NCBI GenBank assembly: GCA_947455725.1
Contig: CANGPL010000009.1
Coordinates: forward strand, 1 to 64,000
Length of the DNA stretch: 64,000 nt
Source: Hyphomicrobiales bacterium
GTDB lineage: Bacteria > Pseudomonadota > Alphaproteobacteria > Rhizobiales > Beijerinckiaceae
Reading direction: 5' to 3'
Under the pieces are notes generated by a model. It made no database searches. It was not told the DNA's origin and worked only from the letters and a program-made list of their open reading frames with translations. Of this stretch, positions 2,171 to 53,352 are shown piece after piece. The number at the start of each line of letters is the position of its first letter. Position 1 is the stretch's first letter. Position numbers and translations under genes: made by a program.

Positions 2171-5100
2171 ATGCATCTCATTCGCGCTGAGACAGTTACC
2201 CTTGATGAGACGGCGGAAGCCGTCGATCTTGGCCTGTCTCCAGCCGATGTGCTTTTCCTTTCTTTCACAGACAGCGACCTCGCCGGTTTGGTCGCCGCGT
2301 GGGAGGCAGGCAAAGGCGTTTATCCAAACTTACGCGTTGCCAACCTCAATCAGCTAAAGCATCCCTACTCCGTTGATTTAATTGTCGAAAAGCTGCTGCC
2401 TCATGCTAAATTTGTTCTCGTCCGACTGTTAGGTGGCAAGGATTACTGGTCCTATGGCGTTGAAGAATTAAGCCGCGCTTCGCGCAGCATGGGCTTCCAT
2501 CTGGCCATCGTCCCAGGCGACTATCAAGCCGATCCACGCCTTGACACCGCATCGAGTTTTTCAACGGACGAATTAAAGACCCTATGGCGCTTTTTTCACG
2601 AGGGTGGTCGTGAAAACCTGACCCATTGCCTAGATTGGATCGCTTCCCAATTAGGGCATGACAGACCCGTCGTGGAACCACAGGCGATCAAGGCGTTAAT
2701 GCCTTATCCCGATGCGTCCAGAACGGCACCTAGCTCCGCTCCACGCGCGCTTTTGGTCGCCTATCGCTCCGTTATGATTGCGGAAGACACGGCCCCCCTC
2801 ATCACGCTTGCCGACGCCCTATCGGCCCGCGGTTTTGCGGTAGATTGTGTTTGTGTTTCAAGCCTTAAGGATCCCGATGCGGTAGCGGCAATGTCGGCCT
2901 TCATCGCGCAATCAAAGCCCAATATCATCCTCAATACGACCGCGTTCTCCGCAAAGCTTGATGACGGCAAAACAGTGCTTGACCAAGCCAATGTGCCCGT
3001 TCTGCAAGCCATGCTGGCAACGACACGGCAAGAGCCTTGGTCCGCATCAACACGAGGCCTCTCAGCAACCGATCTTGCGATGAATGTGGTGCTGCCTGAA
3101 CTCGACGGGCGCATTGTCACGCGGGCTATCTCGTTTAAAGCGGAAGCCGAACGCCGGACGGATACTGAATTTACCCGGGTTATTCATCAACCGATGCCCG
3201 ACAGAGTCGATTTTGTCGCCGATCTTGCACTCAATTGGGTCCGCCTACAGAAAAAAGCAGCCAAAGACCGCAAGATTGCCTGCATTCTGTCAGACTACCC
3301 CCACAAAGGCGGGCGCGCCGGCTATGCGGTGGGTCTTGATACGCCCGAAAGCGTGATCGCGATATCGGACGACCTTCGTGCAGCGGGCTATATGATTTCA
3401 AAATTGCCCGACGGCGCGACGCTGATGGCAGAACTGACCTCAGGAGACGCTAAGGCCACATTATCGCTTAAGGACTATGCCTCGCTTTTTTCCAAGCTCC
3501 CACAATCCTTCCGCGAAAGCGTTATCGCCGTTTGGGGTGATCCGGAAAATGATACCGCCGCTAAAGACGGCACTTTTGGCTTTCGGGTGATCGAGGCGGG
3601 TCAACTAACAATCGCTTTGCAGCCAGCCCGTGGCAACACCATGGACATCAAGTCGGAATATCACGACGCAACCCGTCCACCGTCCCACGCCTATATTGCG
3701 TTTTATCTCTGGCTAACCCGCCACAAAAACCTCGACGCGATGATCCATTGCGGTACGCATGGAACGCTCGAATGGTTACCCGGCAAATCAGTCGCCCTCG
3801 CTTCGGATTGCGCACCAGAAGTGCTGATTGGCGCGCTACCGGTAATCTACCCGTTTATCGTCAATAATCCGGGTGAAGCTGCCCAGGCCAAGCGCCGCCT
3901 TGCAGCTGTCACCATCGGCCACCTGACACCTCCTTTGACGGAGGCCGGTTCGCATGGTGTGGCGGTCGAAATTGAAGGCCTATTGGACGAATATTCAAGC
4001 GCGCAAACGCTAGACCCGCGTCGCGCGGCAATGCTCGCCGAACTCATCGTCAACCGCGCGCATGAAACAGGCTTAATGAAGGATGCTGGCCTGAAAGAGG
4101 GGCAAGACACATCAACCCTACTTTCCGATCTCGATGCATGGCTTTGTGATTTAAAGGAAATGCGCATTGCCGATGGCCTTCACGTCTTTGGTCGCGCTGA
4201 TCCAATCGAAGCCACGAGCGATATGCTCCGGGTCATGGATGAACTCTCTGATCCAGAGGATGCACAGAAGCGCCTTCTCGCAAGCCCAAATGCCGAGCGC
4301 GATGGTCTATTAGCCGCGCTTAACGGCCGCTTTGTCCCGGCGGGACCAGCGGGCGCACCATCGCGTGGGCGCGTCGACGTGCTCCCCACGGGCCGAAATC
4401 TTTACACGATTGATCCGCGCAGCGTCCCCACCCGCACCGCTTGGGAAATAGGCAAACGCACGGCAGAGGAAGTCGTCTCCCGCTACGCGCAAGACCATGG
4501 CGACTGGCCACAATCGATCGTCATCGATTTATGGTGCTCCGCCACCATGCGCACCGGTGGTGATGATCTCGCGCAGGCACTCGCTCTCTTAGGCGTCAGG
4601 CCCGTGTGGGAAGCATCAAGCTCGAGGGTGACAGGCTTTGAAATTCTACCCCCCGCAAGCTTCGGAAGGCCACGGATCGACGTTACTTTACGAATTTCTG
4701 GTCTGTTTCGCGACGTATTCCCGTCCCAGATCGCGCTATTTGACGAAGCCGTTCAAGCCATCTCGCGACTTGGTGAAACAGAGACCGAAAATCCACTTGC
4801 CGCAAAACGGCAGACCACCAGCGCGGATCCATTACGCATCTTTGGCTCGGCACCAGGCACCTATGGTTTAGGGATTGGTGAGCAAATCGCGCGCGGCAAC
4901 TGGCAAGACCAAAGTGAATTGGGGGAGGCCTACCTCACCTCCTCGTCCTTCGCCTATCGTGCGTCCAGTGAAGGCATTGAGGCGCCCTCCGAATTCCGTG
5001 CGCAAATCGCGTCCGCCGATGCCTTTGTCCATGTGCAAGACATGGCCGAACAGGATATTCTCGACTCCGACGCGTTTTCCGAACACGAAGGCGGATTTGC

Positions 5101-5536
5101 AGCGGCAGCCAAAATCCTAGGCGCAACGCCTGCGCTCTATCATGTCGATGCAACAAAGGGCGGCAAACCGGCAAAAGTGCGGACGGTTAGCGAAGAAGTC
5201 GCCCGTGTTCTGAATGGCCGCGCCACAAATCCGCGTTGGATCAAGGGCCAAATGCGCCATGGCTGGCGTGGCGCCACCGAAATCGCCGAGACGGTACAAA
5301 ATCTCTATGCCTACGCGGCCTTAGCCGATGCCGTCGAAAGCCGCCATTTCGACCAGATGTTTGATGCAACGCTTGGTGATGAAGCAGTCAGTGCGTTTCT
5401 AAAAGAAGCCAATCCTGCAGCGGCCCAATCTATAGTTGAGACCTTCCTCGAAGCAGAAAAACGTGGATTTTGGACATCGCGCCGCAATTCGACACGAAGC
5501 GTGCTTGAAAGTTTCTTGAACGAGGCCGCCGAATGA
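2171..5536 (+). CDS. cobN: Cobaltochelatase subunit CobN
   Basis: The large substrate-binding subunit of the aerobic, ATP-dependent CobNST cobaltochelatase, which inserts cobalt into hydrogenobyrinic acid a,c-diamide. The sequence has the CobN/BchH (magnesium-chelatase H) signature throughout, including the conserved IHCGTHGTLEWLPGK segment near residue 525. The C-terminal half carries KGQMRHGWRGATEI. At 1121 residues it is somewhat shorter than many CobN proteins of about 1250, with no sign of a frameshift. cobS and cobT, the AAA+ partners, are not in the window. The stop overlaps the cobG start by 4 bases. Confidence 0.95.
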   Translation: MHLIRAETVTLDETAEAVDLGLSPADVLFLSFTDSDLAGLVAAWEAGKGVYPNLRVANLNQLKHPYSVDLIVEKLLPHAKFVLVRLLGGKDYWSYGVEELSRASRSMGFHLAIVPGDYQADPRLDTASSFSTDELKTLWRFFHEGGRENLTHCLDWIASQLGHDRPVVEPQAIKALMPYPDASRTAPSSAPRALLVAYRSVMIAEDTAPLITLADALSARGFAVDCVCVSSLKDPDAVAAMSAFIAQSKPNIILNTTAFSAKLDDGKTVLDQANVPVLQAMLATTRQEPWSASTRGLSATDLAMNVVLPELDGRIVTRAISFKAEAERRTDTEFTRVIHQPMPDRVDFVADLALNWVRLQKKAAKDRKIACILSDYPHKGGRAGYAVGLDTPESVIAISDDLRAAGYMISKLPDGATLMAELTSGDAKATLSLKDYASLFSKLPQSFRESVIAVWGDPENDTAAKDGTFGFRVIEAGQLTIALQPARGNTMDIKSEYHDATRPPSHAYIAFYLWLTRHKNLDAMIHCGTHGTLEWLPGKSVALASDCAPEVLIGALPVIYPFIVNNPGEAAQAKRRLAAVTIGHLTPPLTEAGSHGVAVEIEGLLDEYSSAQTLDPRRAAMLAELIVNRAHETGLMKDAGLKEGQDTSTLLSDLDAWLCDLKEMRIADGLHVFGRADPIEATSDMLRVMDELSDPEDAQKRLLASPNAERDGLLAALNGRFVPAGPAGAPSRGRVDVLPTGRNLYTIDPRSVPTRTAWEIGKRTAEEVVSRYAQDHGDWPQSIVIDLWCSATMRTGGDDLAQALALLGVRPVWEASSSRVTGFEILPPASFGRPRIDVTLRISGLFRDVFPSQIALFDEAVQAISRLGETETENPLAAKRQTTSADPLRIFGSAPGTYGLGIGEQIARGNWQDQSELGEAYLTSSSFAYRASSEGIEAPSEFRAQIASADAFVHVQDMAEQDILDSDAFSEHEGGFAAAAKILGATPALYHVDATKGGKPAKVRTVSEEVARVLNGRATNPRWIKGQMRHGWRGATEIAETVQNLYAYAALADAVESRHFDQMFDATLGDEAVSAFLKEANPAAAQSIVETFLEAEKRGFWTSRRNSTRSVLESFLNEAAE

Positions 5537-24129: not shown

Positions 24130-24442
24130 AGCTACCCTTTTGATGAAGGCAGCAACACGTCTTAAACGGGTACAGGACAATTGGGATAAAGATCAAAGTG
24201 ATCTTGAGGCTGCTCTAGCCTATAATCGGACGCTATGGACTGTCCTATCCACTGCGGCAACTGAACCCGACTCCCAATTACCTGCCGAGTTGAAAAGAAA
24301 TATCGCTCTAATCACAATCTTTATCTTTAATCGTTCACTCGATATCCAAATTGATCCAAAAGCTACCGACCTAGACGCCCTAATCGATATCAACCGATCA
24401 ATTGCACAAGGACTTTCGGTTGAGCCTGCCGAGGCGGCTTAA
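24065..24442 (+). CDS. flaF: Flagellar biosynthesis regulator FlaF
   Basis: FlaF works with FlbT and, in Caulobacter and Brucella, promotes flagellin translation or export. The N-terminal motif AYQKTAQTGRSQRQLEATLLMKA is diagnostic, followed by LWTVLSTAATEPDSQLP and the ISLFIF-like helix LITIFIFNRSLDI. 125 residues. The start at 24065 gives the complete family N-terminus, so the 65-base overlap with flbT is probably real. Its 3' end overlaps the 3' end of flgL by 4 bases on the other strand. Confidence 0.88.
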   Translation: MNYAMNAYQKTAQTGRSQRQLEATLLMKAATRLKRVQDNWDKDQSDLEAALAYNRTLWTVLSTAATEPDSQLPAELKRNIALITIFIFNRSLDIQIDPKATDLDALIDINRSIAQGLSVEPAEAA

Positions 24443-25971
24443 AGATAATCGGCAAGCGACATCTTCATCAATTTTGATGTAACTTGATAGGCTACCTGCA
24501 ATTGTGTTTGCAGGGCAGACAATTCCGCTGCAGCCTGTTCTGGAGTTACACTCGTTTTTGAATCAAAAGCCTGTTGTAAAACAGCTTTATAAGCAGCCTG
24601 ATTACTACTTTCTAATTTCACGGTACTTTGAACCGAACTCAGTGACGCACTAATTGATTGTAAGTCCGTGCTACAAGCAGTAACCTGAGCACCTGATCGC
24701 GATACCAAATCCGTAAACTGCAAATTAGCTAATGTTTCATCCGTAGTGGATGGTGTAATTACCGTTGCTGCAGCCAATGCTGCTAGGGTCTCTACGAATC
24801 CTTTTTCATTGCCCCTAACGCCAGTACCAATCCTCATACCGTCCGCGATAAACACCGAAATATCTTGCCGCGGATCACCGCCAGAATTAGCATCCGTTCC
24901 ACTATACCAACTAATCGTTCTAGCCGCATTGGCCGTTGCATCCGTTGAAAATCCAGTTGCCGAGCTTAACGTGCCATCAGAGCCAGGAATAATTCGCTGC
25001 GGGGGGCTACCAGACGACGCAGTGAAAAAATCCGTCGCCTGTCGCTGTGCCGACGCGTTAAATAGCTGAACATTGGCAACTTGCTTGAGCGACGTTGTCA
25101 GTGCTGATTGAAAATTCGTCGCCGTATCTGCAGCCGTAGCGCCCAGCGCAAATGTACCCATCCCATTCGCGGTACCAGCCGTCATAACCAGCGGCGTTAT
25201 CGTTCCGTCCGGTAGGGCCAAAGTAATCGTAACACTTTCACCTGAATTTGGTATGCCTGACGAAAAATCAGCCGTCATAGTTGCAGGCGAAGACGTTGAT
25301 AAAGTAGCCGAGCCCTTTGAAAATGTCGATGATGTGCTCTTAATCGACATCCCAAACGGAAATTCCGCTGCGGGCGATGTGAGTGTCACTTGTGGCCCAT
25401 TGCCCACAATACCCATTCTTCCCAGACCATCAGAACCGAGATCCGCGGATTGGCGCTCGGTGATAAGCTTGCCTAATCCATCCTGACCGGTCGATGCATC
25501 ACCATTTAAAATTGACGTGAGGTCTAAAGCGGGAGCAGATGATGTATTGGCACCACCAAAAATGTAACCATTAATACCGCGCGTATTCACATAATCAAGG
25601 GCGGACGTTAAAACAGATTTAAGTTGAGATTGCCGAGAGGCACGCCCCGCCGGATCGCTCACATTAATAGCTGCAAGAGGACCGTTTCTGGTAGCCTTAG
25701 CTGCATCCGAAAGCGAAGTAATGGCATTAATGGATGTCGTTAAATCGGCATTAACAGAAATATTTGAGTTTGCGAATATATCGGATGAGCTAAGCTGAGA
25801 CTGAAGATCAAGCACCTCGAAAACAGAATTACCTAAACCTGAATTTGTTGTTGAAATTTTGCCTGTCGCAAGCTGTGCTGACTTTGAATTCAGGTCATCA
25901 TGTATTTTCGTCAAAGTTTGCGAGATCCAGCCCGACCATGCGTTTCCAATCCCTGCGCCCGAAATGCTCAT
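24439..25971 (-). CDS. flgL: Flagellar hook-filament junction protein FlgL
   Basis: A flagellin-related junction protein. The N-terminal helix has ISQTLTKIHDDLNSKSAQLATGK, the flagellin-like motif, and the gene follows flgE-flgK in the order usual for the hook-associated set. The C-terminal region ends in a D0-type helix (LQTQLQVAYQVTSKLMKMSLADYL). The 510-residue length is longer than enterobacterial FlgL, with a Ser/Thr/Gly-rich centre, as in other alphaproteobacteria. It starts 12 bases after flgK. Naming rests on order and N-terminal motif; a second flagellin is less likely. Confidence 0.85.
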   Translation of the reverse strand: MSISGAGIGNAWSGWISQTLTKIHDDLNSKSAQLATGKISTTNSGLGNSVFEVLDLQSQLSSSDIFANSNISVNADLTTSINAITSLSDAAKATRNGPLAAINVSDPAGRASRQSQLKSVLTSALDYVNTRGINGYIFGGANTSSAPALDLTSILNGDASTGQDGLGKLITERQSADLGSDGLGRMGIVGNGPQVTLTSPAAEFPFGMSIKSTSSTFSKGSATLSTSSPATMTADFSSGIPNSGESVTITLALPDGTITPLVMTAGTANGMGTFALGATAADTATNFQSALTTSLKQVANVQLFNASAQRQATDFFTASSGSPPQRIIPGSDGTLSSATGFSTDATANAARTISWYSGTDANSGGDPRQDISVFIADGMRIGTGVRGNEKGFVETLAALAAATVITPSTTDETLANLQFTDLVSRSGAQVTACSTDLQSISASLSSVQSTVKLESSNQAAYKAVLQQAFDSKTSVTPEQAAAELSALQTQLQVAYQVTSKLMKMSLADYL

Positions 25972-25983
25972 ATACTTACTCCG

Positions 25984-27810
25984 TCACAACTGCATCAAGA
26001 CTGTGAACATTTCTCTGACGGTCGTCATAACTTTTGCGTTAGCAGCATATACATTTTGAAGCGCCGTAAGATTTGTTAATTCTTCATCCATATTAACGGC
26101 CGAGGCTTGACTGAATCGGCCTTGAACCGACGACAAAACCACTGATTGGCTACTGTCCACAGACGCCAGTCGATTAGTAAGATTTGCTTGCGATTGAAGA
26201 ACTTGCTTAACGAAATTACCAACCGTAGACACTGTTCCGGCCAAATCGCCAGATTGTAGATTTATCTCAATTGGTTTGGTCGTAAGCTGCGTAATCAACG
26301 TATTAACACGCACTGAATCGCCTGAAGGAGACGCACCAGTCGAATCAACTAATGCCGACGGCATCGAAATCAATGCAGGATTTAATTGCAACCGAGCTGA
26401 AATTCCAATTCGTTGATCAACACTGTCGAATGAACCCGTAAACGGCGTACCCGTGGTTGAATCGATAAACACCGGAAGCGCACTTCCCTGCCCCTGAATA
26501 TTCGTATTTGTAATTGACGCTGATAATCCGTTCACTACGGCCGGCAAGGCGGCTGTAAAAGATAAGAAATTTGATGGCGGTGTAGTCGATGGATTAACCA
26601 CCGTAACGCCTGCTCCTATTGAATTTAAATCTGCCTGTATAGCTGATGCAGCAGCCGTTAATCCCCCGGAAAAATCCACTCCAAGAACTTTATCAGTTGG
26701 ATCTGATGTTATAGTATCGGCAAGAGGTAATTTCGAAGCATTATCGGCGCGTATGATAGTTACTTTTTGCGCCGTGCCAGAGCTATCAATATAAGAAAGC
26801 GATAGGCGATTTCCCGACTGAATACCCGTCGTATCGATAGATAAACCACCATTAATTACAGTTGACGAAACAGACCGATTGGACAAAGCCTGTGAAAGCC
26901 CTGCTGCGACGTCATCCAATTGAGACTGGGCGCTCGGTAGTATCGTATCACGGAGATCGACTAATCCACCAAGTTGCCCTCCGATCGTGCCTCCGCCGGA
27001 CAAAAGATCAATAGAGCTACCATTTCCCGAAAGCGTTAGGGTCCCTACACTACGTTGCGCGGCAACACTTGAATATTGGCTACTCGCAGACAAAGGCGCA
27101 TGTGAATCAAAACTCAAATTCGAGGCCTGGGAGCCAATCACTAACGAAGCGCCACTTCGAGTCGTCAAATTCACGCTGCCATTAGGTTGCTCGTTGACCG
27201 AAATGGATATCAACTTTGATATTTGCGATAGTGCAGCATCGCGATTATCCAACAGGTCCAAATTATTCTGAATACCTAACGTGTTGATTTGAGCGTTTAA
27301 AGACGCCAATTGTTTTAGGAGTGTATTAACCTGCGTCGTTGATTGACTGATCGCATCTTCGGTATTGTTTCGTAAATTCTGTATACCGCCTGACATTGAC
27401 GATAATTTTTGAGCAAGGTTTTTTGCGCTCGAAAGCGTCGACATTTGCTCCGCGCTGTCGGATTGATTGTTTTGCAACGTTGCTAACGCATTTTTAAAGG
27501 CATCGACGCTTGAGGATAAATTCAAAGTGCCAGTAGGATCGCCACAGATCCCATCCAGCTGCTTGGTGTAATCCGCCTGCGTACTTGTATATCCAGACGA
27601 GCTTGTTTCATTCCATAGCTGTTTCTGCACATAGCCATCAAGGACACGCTGGACGGATGGATTTAAACCGTTAGAGTTTTTTCCAACATATTCGCGCCTT
27701 ACATAACCGGGCTGATTAGCACCGGCAACATTTTGGGAAACGACAGACAAAGCATCTTGAGTCTGATTAAGACCATTAAATGCATTAGAAAGTGCCCCAA
27801 AAAGATCCAT
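25984..27810 (-). CDS. flgK: Flagellar hook-associated protein FlgK
   Basis: The first hook-filament junction protein. The N-terminus (ALSNAFNGLNQTQDALSVVSQNVAGANQPGYVRRE, in parts) is the flagellar rod/hook D0 motif with the ANxxTPGY-like signature. A C-terminal LTNLTALQNVYAANAKVMTTV helix closes the protein. 608 residues, with a low-complexity Ser/Thr/Asn-rich middle. Lies between flgE and flgL on the minus strand with short gaps, probably one transcript. Confidence 0.93.
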   Translation of the reverse strand: MDLFGALSNAFNGLNQTQDALSVVSQNVAGANQPGYVRREYVGKNSNGLNPSVQRVLDGYVQKQLWNETSSSGYTSTQADYTKQLDGICGDPTGTLNLSSSVDAFKNALATLQNNQSDSAEQMSTLSSAKNLAQKLSSMSGGIQNLRNNTEDAISQSTTQVNTLLKQLASLNAQINTLGIQNNLDLLDNRDAALSQISKLISISVNEQPNGSVNLTTRSGASLVIGSQASNLSFDSHAPLSASSQYSSVAAQRSVGTLTLSGNGSSIDLLSGGGTIGGQLGGLVDLRDTILPSAQSQLDDVAAGLSQALSNRSVSSTVINGGLSIDTTGIQSGNRLSLSYIDSSGTAQKVTIIRADNASKLPLADTITSDPTDKVLGVDFSGGLTAAASAIQADLNSIGAGVTVVNPSTTPPSNFLSFTAALPAVVNGLSASITNTNIQGQGSALPVFIDSTTGTPFTGSFDSVDQRIGISARLQLNPALISMPSALVDSTGASPSGDSVRVNTLITQLTTKPIEINLQSGDLAGTVSTVGNFVKQVLQSQANLTNRLASVDSSQSVVLSSVQGRFSQASAVNMDEELTNLTALQNVYAANAKVMTTVREMFTVLMQL

Positions 27811-27839
27811 TATCGATTACCTCTTAAACGCTATACACT

Positions 27840-29183
27840 TTAGCGGATCACGTTAACCGCCTCAGTCATCATCTGTTGGGCTGCCGTGATAACTTTTGCG
27901 TTGGCGGAATAAGCTTGCTGCGTTGCAATCATAAGGCTGAATTCTTGCGAAATATCAGCATTGGATGCCTCAAGACCCCCAACGAGAATATTTGAATCGC
28001 CAGCGCCATATATAGGATCACCCGACTGATCGGATTGCTGATAGACGCCACCATCCAAGCGCTTAAGAGCTTGCCCGCCGTTAAATTTAGCGACCGCAAT
28101 ATCGGCTACCGGCTGTTGTAAACCATTTGAATATTGAGCATATACACGGCCTTTATCGCCAAAATAAACACCCGTTAATGATGCAGATGAATAACCATCT
28201 TGCGCAACATTGGTCGTTCTAAACTGACCAGAGGTATCACCATATTGCGACATACCGGTAAAATCGATCGTGATGGATCCTAAAGAGGTGCCATCAATCG
28301 ATAGTCCTGAAACTCCTACCTTCGGTGTCGCTGGCACAGTCATATTGCCGCTACCATCGAATTGAAAGTTTTGTAATAATGTCCACTTGGGGCTGGTGCC
28401 GGTAGCCTTACTATCATTCTCATAATAAAGGTCATACGTACCCGACGCGTTCTTCGCCCAACGTGTTTGTAACGTTGCCGGAGAGCCTTTAGCATCGTAA
28501 ACGGTAACCGATCCGCCTGCGATAGACGCGTTTAATAAAGTACTTTCGTTATTAGCGGAATAGGTCGTCGCAACTACGGGTGGCGTGGCCGTCGGATTAG
28601 CTGCAATACCTGCAGGTAAAGCATTGGCTACGCTGGCCGGATTAGATGGCGTTGTTGGTAAATTTCCCTGATAGGTAATTGTTGCTGTTGCCTTCGGAGG
28701 CATATCACCCGTAGGCAACTGGATCGTTGTCGGCACACCCGAATTGGCCATGCCAGACGTTGGATCAACCGTGTATCCCATCAAATAATAGCCTGCGCCA
28801 TTGACGAGGGTCTTATTCTTATCCAGCGTAAAATCACCACGCCGCGTAAAAAAGGGTGATGTTGAGAACGACGACGCACCTGATGTCGTGGTTGTTTTTT
28901 GGCTCGTTGCAAAATAGCCGTCGCCGGACAGAGCAATATTTGAATTAATACCCGTCGACTTAAAAGCGCCAGCAACTGCATTGGTTGCCAAGGATGTCGC
29001 TGTGACGCCGCCAGTGATACGAGCAGTTAATCCCAGATCAGGGATCATATCCTGAAAATTGGTATCGATCCGTTTATAACCAATCGTCTGTGAATTTGCG
29101 ATATTACCGGAAATATTATCGAGCGCATAAGCCTGCGCCGCCATGCCGGATACCGCTGTCTGCATTGCCCCGAAAATTCCCAT
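27840..29183 (-). CDS. flgE: Flagellar hook protein FlgE
   Basis: The subunit of the flexible hook. The N-terminal MGIFGAMQTAVSGMAAQAYALDN and IANSQTIGYKR are the canonical hook D0 motif. GLEASNADISQEFSLMIATQQAYSANAKVI is the matching C-terminal helix. 447 residues, typical of alphaproteobacteria. First gene of the leftward flgE-flgK-flgL group. A sigma-54-like promoter at 29255-29270 is well placed to drive it. Confidence 0.95.
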   Translation of the reverse strand: MGIFGAMQTAVSGMAAQAYALDNISGNIANSQTIGYKRIDTNFQDMIPDLGLTARITGGVTATSLATNAVAGAFKSTGINSNIALSGDGYFATSQKTTTTSGASSFSTSPFFTRRGDFTLDKNKTLVNGAGYYLMGYTVDPTSGMANSGVPTTIQLPTGDMPPKATATITYQGNLPTTPSNPASVANALPAGIAANPTATPPVVATTYSANNESTLLNASIAGGSVTVYDAKGSPATLQTRWAKNASGTYDLYYENDSKATGTSPKWTLLQNFQFDGSGNMTVPATPKVGVSGLSIDGTSLGSITIDFTGMSQYGDTSGQFRTTNVAQDGYSSASLTGVYFGDKGRVYAQYSNGLQQPVADIAVAKFNGGQALKRLDGGVYQQSDQSGDPIYGAGDSNILVGGLEASNADISQEFSLMIATQQAYSANAKVITAAQQMMTEAVNVIR

Positions 29184-30831: not shown

Positions 30832-32222
<1,391 letters not shown>

Positions 32223-32489
32223 TGTCCCCTCATAATAAAACGGAACTATCACTGTCCCAAACTCGATATTGGATACTGGAACAGCTGCGCTTTGACGAGG
32301 GGTAAACGTAATAACGCCCCAAAGATCGGCGAAAAGGTCGCAGGGTCGCGAATTGTACGATAGGGTAACTTTCCCGTTAACGTTGTTTTCATTCTTCTCA
32401 ACCCGCGGGTATTCTTTTGGGTCAGCGATTGTTAAAATGCGCGATGATCGGTTCCTGTCCGGGGCAAACCGGAAACACTGAGGCATAAA

Positions 32490-35400
32490 ATGGCGACGCA
32501 GAAAAAAGTTTCGGATTCGGCTGAAGCGGCACTCTCGGCAATTGAAGAGGCTCTGAATCTCTCAATTAACGGATCAGCCCCGGATGCGACGGAGGATACG
32601 TTGCCCGAAAGCTCGGCAACGGCAAAATCGCGTATGCCTCGAACCGAAGCCAATGCCTCAGACATAAGCTCGCCATCACGTAGTTCTGAAACAGGCGCTC
32701 GGCGGGACCGCCAGCCCGTTGATCGGTCGCGTTCAGACGACGGCACGAGATCTCTGCCCGGTCAGCCTGCCAATGATGACCGGCGTGCTGTCGGCGAAAT
32801 TCTTCAAGCCCTTCAAGCGCAGTCGTCGCGCCGCGCCTATGTCGTTGCTGCCATTGCATCGGTCGCATGGCTTGCATTCACGGGATATGCGTTCTGGGCA
32901 ACGGTCGATTTAGCCACCGGCACGGACGCTGGTATTTTCAGCCAGGGTTTTAAAGCGGTTCTCCCCTATTTAGCCTTTGCCAGTGCGCTTCCGATTATCG
33001 TTTTCTTTGCGCTCGCTTTCGCATCGGTTCGCGCCCGAGAGATGCAGGTCGTAGCCCAATCCATGGCCCAAGTCGCCATGCGGCTCGCCGAACCCGAAAA
33101 TTCGAGTGCCGAAGCCGTCGTAAGCCTTTCGCAAGTTGTGCGCCGCGAAGTAGCCGCGATGGGCGATGGCATGGAACGAGCTGTTGCTCGCGCCAGCGAA
33201 CTCGAAACCATGGTGCACAATGAAATTGCGACGCTGGAACGCGCCTATGGCCAGAACGAGATCCGTATCCGTGCTCTGATCGACGAATTGGCATTGCAAC
33301 GGGATGCCATTTCGACGAATGCCGACCAAATTCGTTCGTCTATCCTGACAACCCATGAACATCTTGGCCGCGAAATCGATACGGCAATGAACCGCATCAC
33401 CTCGCTAGTTGAAGATGCTGGTCAAAAAGTTGCGTTCGCGATTGATTCCAAAACGGGCAGCATTGCCGCAACCCTCGGCCGCACTGGCGAGTCATTAATC
33501 TCGACCTTGACCGATAAAGGTGACGATCTCCTGCGTAATTTGGGTCAAGCCAATGAGTCAATCACCGGCCGCCTGACCCAAGTAGGTGAAAATATCGTAA
33601 CAACCCTGTCGAGCAAAGCCGATGCCGTTTCCGAAAAATTGGCGACCACTGGAACACATCTAACGACCGAACTTGTTTCGCGTGCGGAAGATATGGTGCA
33701 AGCCATTGAAATTTCAGCTGAAAAAGCAGGTTCGAAAATTGCTGATGGCTCATCGACTTTTGCCGCCAATATTTTGAGCTCAGGCGAAGAAATTCGTACC
33801 GCCCTCGCCCGTCAATCTGAGGCGATTGAACGGACCTTTGATGATACCGCCACCCGGCTCTCTATCATCATGGACGAGAAACTGTCGGAATCGCGCGCAG
33901 TATTTACCGAGGGCTTAGGCGATATCGCCAGCACCGTTACCTCGCAAGCTGAGCGTTTAAGAGACGATTTCGGCCGCGAGGCGGAAACCATCCGATTGCG
34001 CATGACCGAAGCGGCTGGCGGTCTCATCGATGAGTTGTCGACGGAAACCAATCGTCTGAGCAATGTTCTCTCGGAACGCGCAACGGCAATTGAATCAACG
34101 GTCGAAAATGCCTCGCAAAAGCTTGATATAAGCCTTTCAACGCACCTGTCGCGGATTGACAGCAGTCTTTCGGAGGCTGGCGGTTCGATCGATAGTAAGC
34201 TCAATGGCCACATCAATCGGATCGAGACAAACCTTCATACAATCAGCGAACGCCTTGATAATAAAATCGGTGTGCATGCGGATCGTATAGAGTCCAATCT
34301 TGGTCGTGCCACGAGTGATCTCGACAGCCGCCTGGGCGGTCATATTACCCGCATTGAAAATGGCTTGACCGAGACAAGCAAAACCATTGATGCGACGCTT
34401 CATCGTCGGGTTGAAACACTCTCCAAGACCCTTGAACTCGGCGCGCAAGCGGTCGATGAAACGATGGGCCGTCGGTCAGACGCGATCGAGCGTACACTAT
34501 CCGATCACGTCGTCGCACTCGAAACGAAGATCGCAAATGTCAGTGAAAACTTTACGGGCATTATTGGTGAACGTGTCGCAGCCGTATCTGCTTCCTTCAT
34601 GACCGGCGCTAACCTCATTGAAACGAGCCTGTCTCGGAATGTCGAACACATCGAGTCCAATCTCGCCGGTTATGCAACACGCATCGACCAATCGATCGGT
34701 AGCCGTGTCGCCTCGCTTGAGGCAACCATTCGCGATGGCGCTACAGCCCTTGATCGCAATCTTTCGAGCTATCTTGGCGAGATTACCGCAACGCTTGATC
34801 AAGGCGGCGCACGGATTAATTCGACCCTATCGGGCCAAATTGAGGCCTTCGAAAAGACCGTTATTGTTAAGGGTGGCGCATTAAGCGAAACACTCTATCG
34901 CCGCCTGTCGGACTTCCAGACGAATATCTTGGACCGCAGCAGCGATATTAATGTTGCCATCACCGACAACCTTACAAAACTGGAACATGTTCTCGAAACC
35001 AATGGCAGCGTCTTGGCTGACCGGATCGAAAAAAATACGACCCAGTTTACAACAACCATTGAAGCTCGCCTCGGTGAAGTCGCGCACCTATTCTCGACCG
35101 AAGGTAAGGCGCTGTCTGACCGCCTCTCAGAACAGGCCAAGAATGCAGCAGGCATTATTGAACATCAACTCAGTGCGATTGAAGAAAACTCGCGTCTGAA
35201 GAGCATCGCGGTCGCCGAAGGTATTGATGCGATGTTCGCTCGCGTCGATCAGGGCATAGCACAGCGTACGACAGCTTTGGTCGATGCCATGTCTGAACGC
35301 GCCGCCGGCATCGAAAATACGCTATCCATCAGCAACTCAGCGATTGGCGCAACCATTGAAGCCAAGACCGAGGATCTTGGTCGCGTCATGACGGAACGTG

Positions 35401-37394
35401 CCGAGCGCGTAACACAAACGCTCGCCGTTCGTGCGACCGAAATTAACGAGATCCTTGGCGAACGCGCTCTCGAAATTGCTGGCACGCTTGACGGGCAAGT
35501 TCGGCACTTTGAAGACAATATCGTTTCACGACTTGAGACGATCGGAAGCGTCATCAATACACAAAGCGAGCGGTTTGGCGAAACGCTTCAAGGACAGACG
35601 GAAGCGATCTCCGGTGCGCTTGATACGGCTATTGATAAGCTTTCAACGGCGCTTGATACGCATGGCAACGGCTTGATCAATAATTTGCGCTCTCATGCTA
35701 CCGATGTGTCGCAGACGATTACGGAAGTTGGTCAAACCGCTGCGCGTAATCTTACCGATGCAACTTCGACGATCCAATCCGAAACGCTCGTCACGCTACA
35801 AAAATTGGCAGATGCCAGCCAGATCGTACAAACTGTCATTGGCTCGGCCAACGACGCGATTGTGAAACTGGAAGGCACGCTGGCGGATCGTATCGTAGGC
35901 CTCTCCCATGCCGGATCGATCATCCGCGACGATGCAATGGAATCAACCAAGCTTCTTATGGAGCAAATCGAAGCGATGCGTTACGTTACAGGTGCAGGCG
36001 TCGGTGAAACGCGTGCCCTCATCGAAATGTTGGATGAACGTACCCGCGCGGTATCGTCGGTCACCCGCGAACATGTCGACATGCTTGAAGCAGCTACCGG
36101 CATGCTCACGCAAGTCGAACAGCGCCTCGGTATTGATTTGGCCACACGCCGTGAAAATATTGAAGCCCTCACTGCAGGTCTCAATTCGCGGATCAGCGAC
36201 GTGCAAAATGTTGCCGACAGCTTCGCTTCCAAAATGGCGGAAGCTCTCGAAGTTGTTGAGAACAGAACAACGGCAATCAATTCTCTGATGAACGACACGT
36301 CGGCCAAGGCCGGTGAAGCACTGCGCCAGCAATTTGCTGCCGTTCGCAGCGAAGCGGACAACGAAAAAGATCGTACGCTTGAAGCCGTGCGCAGCTTAAC
36401 AACCGCGACCATTGCAGAAATGGGCGAGGTTCTTTCGAAACTGGTCGAACGCTTTGACGAAACCGCCAAAGAAGTTAAAGCGACGACGTTTCAAATCGCA
36501 CGTGAAATTGAAAACACGCGTACCGAGATTGCGGGCAGCCTCGTCAATCTGCCGCGTGAAACGCAAGAGCAAGGCGCCAATCTGCGTCGGGCCATTAGCG
36601 ACCAATCGCGCGCGCTAAGCGAGTTGTCTAACATCTTGGCATCGACAGGAAGAGTAACCGACGTGGCAAAGCCAATGTCGGCTGCGCCTGCTCCGATTCC
36701 AGCCCCCACTCCTGCTCCTGTCGCGCCTCGTCAAGAGCAAGCATACGTTGCCCCGGTTCAGCCCGCTCCTGTAGCACCTGTCGAGCCAGTGCGCACAGAG
36801 ATCAAAGCGCCATCCTTTGTGGCCCGGGACGTTCAGCAACCGACCCCTCCAACGCCAGAAATCGGCATTCGTCAAGATGCCAAGCCAGCACAGGCGCAAG
36901 CGACCGATAAAGGCCAACGGACTGGTTGGCTGTCGGATTTGTTAGATCGTGCGTCACGCGATGACGGCAAAACAGGTCAGCCATCAGAACCCGCTGCAAT
37001 CGTGGCCGCACCGAAAGTACAAGTCCCAGTTGAGGAGCCAAAGGTTGAAGCGCCGAAAGAGCCTATCTCGGCTCTCTTGACAGATATCTCAAAGCTTGTG
37101 GACGAAGCCTCCGTCGCCCGCCTTTGGAACAGCTATCTCAAGGGCGAGCCTGCCGCATTCTCAAGACCGATGTATACCCTGGAAGGCCAACGTCGTTTTG
37201 AAGAGCTTACCGCACTTCACACAAAAGATGACCGCTTCCGTTCGAGCCTCGATGCGTATGCAGCAAAGTTCGAAGCGGTTCTCCGTGACCTGACAACGAC
37301 AGACCAAGATGGCGCGATTACGCGTTCGATCTTAGCCTCACCGGAGGGTCGCGTTTATACGGTCTTAGCGCATGTCAGCCGCAGGCTTGGCTAA
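32490..37394 (+). CDS. Giant repeat coiled-coil membrane protein, GPR-like (growth pole ring)
   Basis: A 1634-residue protein. Residues 1-115 are polar and probably disordered. Two membrane helices follow at about 117-142 (VVAAIASVAWLAFTGYAFWA) and 156-180 (AVLPYLAFASALPIIVFFAL). Residues 288-1101 are 37 exact-length repeats of 22 residues with hydrophobic positions 5, 9, 16 and 20, an 11-residue (hendecad) helix pattern like apolipoproteins. More coiled coil runs to about 1390, then a Pro/Ala linker (about 1397-1436) and a C-terminal helical domain (about 1515-1634). The plan resembles the Agrobacterium Growth Pole Ring protein GPR, which organises polar growth. That homology is inferred from architecture, not alignment. 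Confidence 0.7.
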   Translation: MATQKKVSDSAEAALSAIEEALNLSINGSAPDATEDTLPESSATAKSRMPRTEANASDISSPSRSSETGARRDRQPVDRSRSDDGTRSLPGQPANDDRRAVGEILQALQAQSSRRAYVVAAIASVAWLAFTGYAFWATVDLATGTDAGIFSQGFKAVLPYLAFASALPIIVFFALAFASVRAREMQVVAQSMAQVAMRLAEPENSSAEAVVSLSQVVRREVAAMGDGMERAVARASELETMVHNEIATLERAYGQNEIRIRALIDELALQRDAISTNADQIRSSILTTHEHLGREIDTAMNRITSLVEDAGQKVAFAIDSKTGSIAATLGRTGESLISTLTDKGDDLLRNLGQANESITGRLTQVGENIVTTLSSKADAVSEKLATTGTHLTTELVSRAEDMVQAIEISAEKAGSKIADGSSTFAANILSSGEEIRTALARQSEAIERTFDDTATRLSIIMDEKLSESRAVFTEGLGDIASTVTSQAERLRDDFGREAETIRLRMTEAAGGLIDELSTETNRLSNVLSERATAIESTVENASQKLDISLSTHLSRIDSSLSEAGGSIDSKLNGHINRIETNLHTISERLDNKIGVHADRIESNLGRATSDLDSRLGGHITRIENGLTETSKTIDATLHRRVETLSKTLELGAQAVDETMGRRSDAIERTLSDHVVALETKIANVSENFTGIIGERVAAVSASFMTGANLIETSLSRNVEHIESNLAGYATRIDQSIGSRVASLEATIRDGATALDRNLSSYLGEITATLDQGGARINSTLSGQIEAFEKTVIVKGGALSETLYRRLSDFQTNILDRSSDINVAITDNLTKLEHVLETNGSVLADRIEKNTTQFTTTIEARLGEVAHLFSTEGKALSDRLSEQAKNAAGIIEHQLSAIEENSRLKSIAVAEGIDAMFARVDQGIAQRTTALVDAMSERAAGIENTLSISNSAIGATIEAKTEDLGRVMTERAERVTQTLAVRATEINEILGERALEIAGTLDGQVRHFEDNIVSRLETIGSVINTQSERFGETLQGQTEAISGALDTAIDKLSTALDTHGNGLINNLRSHATDVSQTITEVGQTAARNLTDATSTIQSETLVTLQKLADASQIVQTVIGSANDAIVKLEGTLADRIVGLSHAGSIIRDDAMESTKLLMEQIEAMRYVTGAGVGETRALIEMLDERTRAVSSVTREHVDMLEAATGMLTQVEQRLGIDLATRRENIEALTAGLNSRISDVQNVADSFASKMAEALEVVENRTTAINSLMNDTSAKAGEALRQQFAAVRSEADNEKDRTLEAVRSLTTATIAEMGEVLSKLVERFDETAKEVKATTFQIAREIENTRTEIAGSLVNLPRETQEQGANLRRAISDQSRALSELSNILASTGRVTDVAKPMSAAPAPIPAPTPAPVAPRQEQAYVAPVQPAPVAPVEPVRTEIKAPSFVARDVQQPTPPTPEIGIRQDAKPAQAQATDKGQRTGWLSDLLDRASRDDGKTGQPSEPAAIVAAPKVQVPVEEPKVEAPKEPISALLTDISKLVDEASVARLWNSYLKGEPAAFSRPMYTLEGQRRFEELTALHTKDDRFRSSLDAYAAKFEAVLRDLTTTDQDGAITRSILASPEGRVYTVLAHVSRRLG
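33351..35792 (+). repeat. 37 tandem 22-residue (66-base) coding repeats
   Basis: Translated in the GPR-like frame, every 66 bases encode one unit, from THEHLGREID (residue 288) to the unit starting VGQTAARNL (residue 1080). I checked the register at residues 288, 552, 640 and 1080 and it never slips. Units at 552, 574, 596 and 618 are the most alike (H-x2-RI-D/E-x2-L-x6-I/L-D). The DNA copies have diverged, so this is an old repeat kept by protein selection. Confidence 0.9.
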
Positions 37395-47938: not shown

Positions 47939-48025
47939 TGGTGCGGACAGCGGGAGTCGAACCCGCACAGTATTACTACCGAGGGATTTTAAGTCCCTTG
48001 CGTCTACCAGTTTCGCCATGTCCGC
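47939..48025 (-). tRNA. tRNA-Leu (anticodon UAA)
   Basis: The minus strand folds as a class II tRNA. The acceptor is GCGGACA pairing with TGTCCGC, discriminator A, and a genomically encoded CCA (47939-47941). The D-arm is GCGAAACTGGTAGACGC, the anticodon arm GGGACTTAAAATCCC with UAA, then a short variable arm CGGTAGTAATACTG and T-arm GCGGGTTCGACTCCCGC. It lies between gpt and the lysine aminomutase gene on the same strand. Confidence 0.96.
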
Positions 48026-51819: not shown

Positions 51820-53352
51820 TTACAGAGACTCGAGAAAAGCTTTGGCTTCAGCCGCGATCTGCTGGCGTTTTTCAAACGGCATTGCGGCCAAAGTACGGTA
51901 AGGCATCGCCAAACGCGGATTACCTTCCAAAACCGGGCGGTTTCGTGCCAGAAAATCCCAATAGAGGTAATTAAACGGGCATGCTTTCGGCCCAAGCTTT
52001 TCTTTCGGCGAAAAGGCGCAATGACCGCAATAATCGCTCATCCGATCAATATAAGCGCCAGACGCGGCATAAGGCTTGGACGCCATAATGCCGCCATCCG
52101 CAAACAAGGCCATGCCGTGGACATTGGGTAATTCGACCCACTCAAACGCATCGGCATAGACGGCCAAAAACCATTCTTCGACTTCAGCGGGGCTAATACC
52201 TGCCAGAAGCGCAAAATTTCCCAGCACCATCAAGCGCTGAATATGATGGGCATAGGCATGCTGTATCGTATCGCCAACGCATTGCTTCAAGCAATTCATC
52301 GACGTGTCACCCGTCCAATAAAATGCCGGTAGCGGACGATTGGCGTTCAGCGCATTGCTCTTTTCATAGCTTGGCATTTTCAACCAATAGAGCCCGCGCA
52401 CATATTCGCGCCAGCCAAGGATCTGTCGGATAAACCCTTCAACCGCGTTCAAGGGCGCGAGGCCATTATGATAGGCTGCTTCAGCCTTGCGGCAAACTTC
52501 ATCCGGCAACAAAAGGCCGATATTTAGCATCGGGGAAATCAGCGCATGAAAGAGAAAACTTTCATCCTGCTTCATCGCGTCCTGTACGTCGCCGAAAGAT
52601 GGTAAACAAACCTCAATAAAATGATCGAGAGCAAGCAGCGCATCAGCACACGTCACCGGCCATTCAAACAACTTAAGCTCACCCGGATGTCGCGTAAACC
52701 GCTCACCCACTAAAGCCATCACATCGCGCGTAATTGTATCAGGCGCACTTCGCAAACGCTTTGGTAATTTCAATCCTTTTGGAAGCGCTTTTCTATTTTC
52801 ACTATCAAAATTCCATTGCTCACCAACAGGCTCGCCGCCATTCATTAATAGGCCTGTTTTGCGCCGCATCTCGCGATAGAAGAACTCCATACGAAGCTGC
52901 TTCTTACCATCGGCCCATTTTGAAAATTCAGCGGGCGATGAAAAGAAACGCGTGTCCTCTAATATCGCAACCGGCAATCCAAAGGCATCATGCCAATCGT
53001 CCATGAATTGACGAACGCGATATTCGCTTGGTTCTGTAACGATCAAGGATTGAGGCTGATGTCTTCTGATCGCCCGTTCAACTTCACCCGAAAATGAGCC
53101 CGTATTATCGGCATCATCAAGTTTAACATAATCAACGCGAATGCCGCGCTCTTCCAATTCTTGGGCAAAGTGCCGCATCGCGGAAAGCACCACAACAATT
53201 TTTTGTTTATGATGCGGGACGTAAGTTGTTTCAGTCTGAACCTCAACCATCAACACAACATCGTGGTTGATATCGATATCGCTCAGTGAGGAAATATTAT
53301 GACTGAGTTGATCACCAAGGATCAACCGTAGGCGGCCAGTCTTCTTATTCAT
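51820..53352 (-). CDS. Iron-sulfur bacterial photolyase/cryptochrome (FeS-BCP, PhrB-like)
   Basis: A 510-residue member of the prokaryotic (6-4) photolyase class that binds FAD, a lumazine antenna and a [4Fe-4S] cluster. The N-terminal domain opens with RLILGDQLSHNISSLSDID. The cluster ligands are Cys358 (QCVGDTIQHAYAHH), Cys442-x2-Cys445 (YCGHCAFSP) and Cys458 (ACPFNYLYWDF). The C-x2-C-x12-C spacing equals that of Agrobacterium PhrB. GWREYVRGLYW and the histidine-rich QHAYAHHIQRLMVLGNF are the FAD region. It overlaps the following SDR gene (ATGA) and lies near a DUF2256 gene. Confidence 0.93.
   Translation of the reverse strand: MNKKTGRLRLILGDQLSHNISSLSDIDINHDVVLMVEVQTETTYVPHHKQKIVVVLSAMRHFAQELEERGIRVDYVKLDDADNTGSFSGEVERAIRRHQPQSLIVTEPSEYRVRQFMDDWHDAFGLPVAILEDTRFFSSPAEFSKWADGKKQLRMEFFYREMRRKTGLLMNGGEPVGEQWNFDSENRKALPKGLKLPKRLRSAPDTITRDVMALVGERFTRHPGELKLFEWPVTCADALLALDHFIEVCLPSFGDVQDAMKQDESFLFHALISPMLNIGLLLPDEVCRKAEAAYHNGLAPLNAVEGFIRQILGWREYVRGLYWLKMPSYEKSNALNANRPLPAFYWTGDTSMNCLKQCVGDTIQHAYAHHIQRLMVLGNFALLAGISPAEVEEWFLAVYADAFEWVELPNVHGMALFADGGIMASKPYAASGAYIDRMSDYCGHCAFSPKEKLGPKACPFNYLYWDFLARNRPVLEGNPRLAMPYRTLAAMPFEKRQQIAAEAKAFLESL

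Follow-up and report, generated by a model that had tools for sequence, protein, structure and literature searches.

The growth pole ring protein GPR of A. tumefaciens is reported, in the available excerpts of its published description, to assemble into a 200-nm ring at the growing pole, composed of six foci, and to be required for rod shape, and two transmembrane segments are placed at its N-terminus (PMC8262873). According to the same excerpts, the authors favour an apolipoprotein-like folding combined with lipid handling and argue that the protein must fold, since the foci are only 50 nm wide (PMC8262873). RgsE of S. meliloti interacts with RgsA, RgsS and TolQ in the accessible part of the respective report (PMC7327166), where rgsE is described as not strictly essential in the laboratory strain Rm2011, and the Brucella homologue, in the passages available, is also located at the new pole (PMC9938171). 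Both the GPR/RgsE family and its apolipoprotein likeness have already been published, and the protein described here is a probable further member.

The window, by which we mean the whole stretch of 64,000 nucleotides of Hyphomicrobiales DNA that was analysed, carries an open reading frame on the forward strand (32490..37394) that encodes 1634 residues. Judged from its sequence, the product resembles GPR/RgsE and is probably a relative of these proteins, an assignment that rests on architecture, Pfam and the order-wide conservation of an N-terminal anchor, with Atu1348 and SMc00190 likened by description. The preliminary description of this DNA had called the protein GPR-like and this was borne out: a conserved helix and an array resembling PF01442 come after a pair of N-terminal membrane segments, and a Pro-rich linker plus a C-terminal part lie past the helices. 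The two hydrophobic, transmembrane-like stretches (residues ~117-142 and ~156-181; 32838..33032, on the forward strand like all features of this protein) were recognised in the sequence and as helices in a low-confidence model. They precede the N anchor (residues 205-285; 33102..33344), which was delimited by alignment, overlaps the start of the array and is highly conserved, with a mean column identity of 74% in an alignment of 17 sequences. In a draw of 121 genomes across the order, 119 carried the anchor, among them each of the 107 with a completeness of >=90% and a contamination of <=5%. The array itself (residues 271-1095; 33300..35774) comprises 825 residues, or 75 x 11, in one phase and with no slip by Viterbi decoding, spectrum and block phases. 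In Pfam, the protein matched the Apolipoprotein family PF01442 (E 7.7e-49; 166.4 bits compared to a gathering score of 90), and apolipoprotein A-IV chains were the only PDB sequences found at E 0.01 or better. Past the array, AlphaFold2, the phases and the anchors delimit a further predicted helix (residues ~1101-1382; 35790..36635), which bears a conserved LPxET motif from residue 1354. It was modelled as one helix with pLDDT 73-84 at residues 1100-1349 and 64-69 thereafter, and is hendecad-like only at residues 1239-1329, in a phase differing from that of the main array. Next come a Pro-rich linker (36642..37049) with pLDDT mostly <50, which looks largely disordered, contains a short conserved GWLSDLLxRAS helix and varies freely in length among family members, and a C-terminal helical domain (residues ~1525-1634; 37062..37391; pLDDT 76-89 from ~1530). 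No Pfam match was found in the last 164 residues, and a fold search with the C-terminal model gave weak matches, the best of which was 1tm9 (Z 6.5, rmsd 4.3, 101 aligned); 107 of 299 chains had Z >=2 and one had Z >=5.

Divergently to gpr, on the reverse strand, lies a gene for a 2Fe-2S ferredoxin (31902..32486), a neighbour of gpr in 21 of the 22 loci inspected. As listed (31902-32490 region), 3 bp separate the start of the ferredoxin frame, on the opposite strand, from that of gpr; since the Fer2 domain begins only at residue 99, the true ferredoxin start is probably internal, with a divergent promoter region in between. Flagellar genes (FlgE-, FlgK- and flagellin_C-like; window 24439-29183) are found near gpr in an order common to several loci of the genus group. 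Elsewhere in the window, we observed a cobalamin riboswitch (398-611; 121 bits) upstream of cobW-like (1115-2164) and cobN-like (2171-5536) genes, a tRNA (47942-48025) and a gene for a deoxyribodipyrimidine photolyase-related protein (51820-53352). The assembly of the window contains a second gpr locus on the 12-kb contig C70 (L004; G000) with the same gene order and a protein identity of 50-79% to the window locus, gpr being 51% identical in the piece shown. We rejected a paralogue or second copy and consider it most likely, given this combination of order and identity, that the contig of a related species was binned into the assembly. In Cohaesibacter celericrescens H1304, two gpr frames on two contigs (L122 and L129) are identical over 1718 residues, i.e. 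either a recent duplication or a duplicated contig.

The preliminary description had reported 37 repeats of 22 residues at residues 288-1101 (33351-35792) and had proposed 11 as the true period, hydrophobic residues at positions 5, 9, 16 and 20 and an array devoid of Pro, Cys and Trp. The coordinates proved exact, the 814 residues being 37 x 22 with zero slips. The hydrophobicity spectrum of residues 288-1101 was dominated by one peak, at 11/3 = 3.667 residues, whose power was 106 compared to a maximum of 11.1 in 200 shuffles scanned over periods of 3.4-4.0. The autocorrelation of hydrophobicity, which that description had suggested as a check, lay between 0.43 and 0.52 for each multiple of 11 as far as 110. 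An 11-state cyclic Viterbi model with a profile trained on the family assigned one uninterrupted phase to residues 271-1095, and a profile from the window array alone assigned one phase to residues 274-1097; the register was thus confirmed, but the array starts slightly earlier than residue 288, at ~271-274. All 25 consecutive blocks of 33 residues chose the global phase, and the in-register log-odds score was 349 as opposed to a maximum of -447 in 200 permutations, with a profile that includes the window protein. The period of 11 held in the cross-validation as well as in the spectrum: a unit of 11 (log-likelihood -1902.5) outperformed a unit of 22 (-1984.5), and identity at odd multiples of 11 equalled that at even multiples, on which grounds 22 was rejected as the fundamental unit in the window.

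In the 11-fold register, the hydrophobic positions named above hold I/L/V/M/F in 95% and 99% of cases, and the absence of Pro, Cys and Trp from residues 288-1101 was verified; in the protein as a whole, there is no Pro from after residue 202 until residue 1355, no Trp between 136 and 1480 and no Cys at all. The apolar stripe consists of three positions per 11, namely position 5 (95% I/L/V/M/F), position 9 (99%) and position 2, the latter with 68% Ala/Gly/Ser/Thr and 28% large apolar residues, which together span 65 degrees. A spacing of 3-4-4 is the textbook core of a hendecad coiled coil, and the array has this spacing at a period of 3.667. As a whole, it is an unbroken run of hendecads that is compatible with an amphipathic helix. 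In another relative (L041, from genome G028), the family-trained model found a single-phase hendecad register of 1653 residues (461-2113 of the open frame), longer than the window array; the model with a profile from the window array alone left residues 1616-1842 without assignment, with equal phase on both flanks.

Lengths were compared among relatives by means of D, the distance from the N anchor (RREVAAMGDG) to the C anchor (LPxET), which makes an alignment of the repeats unnecessary. The starting set comprised 31 open frames as well as 80 named loci, the latter being the best 80 of at least 518 relatives. Without two incomplete frames, ten open-ended loci and eight duplicates (by protein and contig size), it amounted to 91 proteins; four with weak C anchors (G020, G026, G027 and G029) were removed before building the tree, which left 87. 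The named relatives include Chelatococcus, Microvirga, Bosea, Stappia and Methylobacterium, which we take to be Hyphomicrobiales. In the genus group of the window, D was 1137 in four genomes, 1181 in two, 994 in four and 1049 in contig C70, and the resulting differences of +44, -143 and -88 are each a multiple of 11; in G002, a more distant member, D differed by 41, which is not, and G001, one genome of the genus, gave no match in this comparison. Over the 87 members (a sample drawn in part from the best 80 of at least 518 relatives), the distance between the anchors ranged from 473 to 2225 residues, i.e. more than 4-fold.

These values bear on the earlier proposal that the length of the array is strictly conserved and that its physical length itself is selected. 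An array of 824 residues is constant in the four closest congeners (G000, G006, G007 and G009; 86-88% identity), which speaks for this proposal. A comparison of repeat number between related genomes, as the preliminary description had recommended, revealed that array length differs even within the genus group, and strict conservation is contradicted by the differences of +44, -88, -143 and +41 as well as by the range of the family. We consider selection on physical length highly improbable: the family as a whole contradicts it, and it remains, at most, an idea for the level of the species.

What persists among close relatives is the remainder of D modulo 11. All differences within Chelatococcus, Bosea, Camelimonas, Cohaesibacter, Stappia and Phreatobacter were multiples of 11, as were those among 13 of 16 Microvirga members, and Kaistia and Methylobacterium were each divided between two mod-11 classes. 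On a tree of the anchor segments of the 87 proteins, D changed at least 68 times and D mod 11 only 26 times, compared to a mean of 53 and a minimum of 46 changes for random residues (1000 trials) and to 57 and 56 changes for moduli 10 and 12, respectively. The Pro-rich linker, used as a control on the tree, showed no such dip, with 76 changes in length and 65 changes modulo 11. Among 31 disjoint closest pairs (among the matches listed, with the near-duplicates L108 and L129 excluded), 24 were of unequal length, and in 20 of these the difference was a multiple of 11 (binomial p = 1e-17 for a chance of 1/11). In the alignments of the disjoint pairs, 60 of 69 indels were multiples of 11, 38 of them even and 22 odd, and 13 were of exactly one unit. 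These results suggest that among close relatives phase, and not length, is kept, and the more than 4-fold range in length combined with a phase conserved among close relatives allows selection on register to be told apart from selection on length.

Multiples of 11 could, in principle, also be mainly mutational, if recombination or slippage between repeats of 33 or 66 bp generated them with little selection on register. We analysed the junctions of 42 indels from 19 of the 24 length-differing pairs. Junction identity reached at least 75% in six of these indels, identity at an indel's own lag usually exceeded the in-register background, some members are more identical at 66 bp than at 33 bp and even multiples (38) exceed odd ones (22), all of which is in line with such an origin; 28 of the 42 indels, however, lacked an exact 12-bp repeat at the junction. 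Homologous unequal exchange can thus account for some events, but hardly for most of them. The DNA of the window array is, moreover, strongly diverged, with an identity of 34% at lag 33 and 36% at lag 66, and odd multiples are common. The array is also under strong purifying selection: dN/dS was 0.025-0.042 in five comparisons involving four congeners (synonymous divergence 0.7-1.9) and 0.028-0.042 between the window and three congeners (synonymous divergence 1.6-1.9), the congeners compared having no difference in array length. The stripe positions 2, 5 and 9 differed in 2-5% of comparisons and the other positions in 6-24%; dN/dS was lower at the stripe than elsewhere in four of the five comparisons, the fifth giving 0.026 vs 0.023. 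A mainly mutational origin is, in our view, unlikely, and we infer that selection, rather than homogenisation of repeats, caused the quantisation of length. Collapse of tandem repeats during assembly would also remove whole units, and many of the sources are draft assemblies or MAGs. It requires long identical repeats, however; exact junction repeats of more than 30 bp occurred at two of the 42 indels and were absent from the other 40, and the same lengths recur across different genomes, so that a contribution of this artefact to the variation in length is very improbable.

The rule is not without exceptions. Of the 87 sampled members (drawn in part from the best 80 of at least 518 relatives), 34 had no phase change in the main array, 27 had one, 18 had two and eight had three or more. 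Two tandem duplications that are not multiples of 11 were observed, one of 80 residues (66+14) at residues 616-935 of L081 from Microvirga sp. bin82 and one of 62 residues (55+7) at residues 1254-1564 of L040 from genome G014, with identities of 76% and 65%, respectively, at their own lag compared to 5-9% at neighbouring lags. In an order-wide draw, the C anchor was matched in 112 genomes, of which 100 were used after 12 (G019, G020, G027, G032, G042, G043, G074, G079, G091, G103, G106 and G111) had been removed by hand because matches lay on different contigs, were split or were short and weak, or because of a frame break. Of 20 steps from one length to another within genera, 12 were multiples of 11 (p = 2e-8; two of the 20 steps include a genome of the first set), and between genera of one family this was the case for six of 28 steps, which indicates that the total of the register shifts with evolutionary distance. 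In the 91 related and hence non-independent proteins, slips of +4, +8, +1 and +5 made up 192 of 199 adjacent slips, most being +4, +8 or +1 and some falling in the C-terminal non-hendecad region. It is suggestive to read these slips as one to four heptads and the lengths as 11a + 7b, a reading that does not amount to a test since any length can be written in this form.

A membrane-anchored, nearly straight coiled-coil rod is the best explanation for these results, and we hold it with moderate confidence, its oligomerisation, its function as a rod, the selection acting on it and its link to polar growth being inferred. As the local homologue of GPR/RgsE, the window protein would be a cytoplasmic scaffold of the growing pole that is anchored in the inner membrane. 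Its array would form a single continuous alpha-helix of hendecads with Ala/Gly, Ile and Leu at 3-4-4 spacing, and this helix would associate lengthwise with further helices, its own copies being the most likely partners, to give a long rod that may keep the Pro-rich linker and the C-terminal domain off the membrane and organise proteins of polar growth. An indel that is not a whole number of hendecads would turn the stripe by ~98 degrees per residue and would mostly be purged by selection, because the seam is continuous; a heptad-sized step would more rarely be spared.

The two geometries considered in the preliminary description were a coiled coil and a helix lying flat on a membrane. If the array were an amphipathic helix of 11/3 geometry that rests, like an apolipoprotein, on the inner membrane or on growth-pole lipid, with its apolar face held on the bilayer by the register, this could account for the match to PF01442 and for apoA-IV chains being the sole PDB sequences matched at E <=0.01. 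The 11/3 period and the Thr and Gly content are compatible with such a helix, and a flat helix, too, would need a register and would disfavour indels of one residue. A role of GPR with lipids has, in addition, been put forward in the accessible part of the published work (PMC8262873). Against this stand the narrow stripe of 65 degrees and an acidic, Lys-poor composition, with about one net negative charge per 18 residues in the window array and a net charge of -5.8 per 100 residues between the anchors of the 87 proteins (110,392 residues). The mean lipid-binding factor was 0.03 in the array and its mean was below the threshold of 0.68 in all 198 family segments. Since the stripe is narrow, the sequence acidic and the lipid-binding factor close to zero, the coiled-coil rod is favoured over the helix lying on the membrane, which we regard as possible but doubtful; of the two geometries, a helix on an anionic membrane would be harder to reconcile with the stripe and the negative charge than the coiled coil. 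Pro amounts to 0.06% between the anchors compared to 8.7% outside and is absent there from 60 of the 87 proteins, and Gly, at 7.8% between the anchors of the same proteins, is high for a rigid coiled coil. An AlphaFold2 model of the monomer (residues 100-1240) had a mean pLDDT of 53.6 and placed low-confidence helices with two short breaks in the array.

With the rise of an alpha-helix of 0.15 nm per residue, the 825 residues of the array would measure ~124 nm as one helix and the 1137 residues between the anchors ~170 nm. For GPR of A. tumefaciens, with 1,700 helical residues, the same rise gives 255 nm. The 600 nm given in the accessible excerpts (PMC8262873) fit an extended chain rather than a helix.

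Neither a hendecad register nor a change in length by units of 11 was found for GPR/RgsE in the literature searched, a set to which the first description of GPR does not belong, and the terms 'hendecad' and '11-residue' were absent from the GPR/RgsE texts it comprised. Repeat proteins, apolipoproteins among them, evolve by whole repeats. As this is generally known, our finding is a quantitative rule for one family and not a new kind of system. It concerns a scaffold that is central to polar growth, yet structurally unexplained. Under the rule, the loss of 22 or 33 residues should do less harm than the loss of 20 or 24, and published deletion phenotypes can be read anew in this light. The "coiled coil" deletions of A. 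tumefaciens GPR, as given in the available excerpts, comprise 20 or 21 residues, with ranges of 413 to 434, 413 to 433 and 1,100 to 1,120 (PMC8262873), and due to this discrepancy the phase shift of these deletions cannot be fixed. A bolder and rather improbable idea is that GPR is a rod tuned to each species, whose length varies mostly in hendecad quanta of 1.65 nm with the seam kept continuous and whose count of units sets the spacing of the growth ring, be it the size of the ring or the reach of the C-terminal domain from the membrane. If true, gain or loss of whole units could change cell geometry in the Hyphomicrobiales.

Among the known systems compared, ZorA of Zorya defence shares a helical cytoplasmic tail on an inner-membrane protein, published, in the part of the account available, as a bundle of five C-termini, and ZorA profiles matched the window protein in the array. 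The NCBIfam models scored 50.6, 20.6 and 18.4 against cut-offs of 190, 700 and 250, respectively, with the best stretches inside the array, and the best stretches of the PADLOC profiles covered residues 262-1135. None of the ZorA profiles matched the N-terminal membrane part of the protein, and Pfam gave no ZorB-like match among 20 other open reading frames of the window that were scanned. Membership in ZorA was rejected, since the scores are below the cut-offs and the matches lie in the array and not in a membrane domain (MotA/ExbB/TolQ-like). With the Apolipoprotein A1/A4/E family (PF01442; human apoA-IV), the window protein shares amphipathic helical repeats of 11/22 residues and a match in sequence, but it differs from these proteins in its membrane anchor, in the unbroken register over 825 residues, in the lack of Pro in the array, in its acidity and in the narrow stripe. 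The closest likeness in architecture is to GPR (Atu1348) and RgsE (SMc00190), which, as far as the available descriptions go, likewise have two N-terminal membrane segments, a very long PF01442-like helical region and a Pro-rich stretch, and whose C-terminus matters for function, a C-terminal part being present in the window protein as well; at 1634 residues, the latter is smaller than GPR with 2115 and RgsE with 2089 residues.
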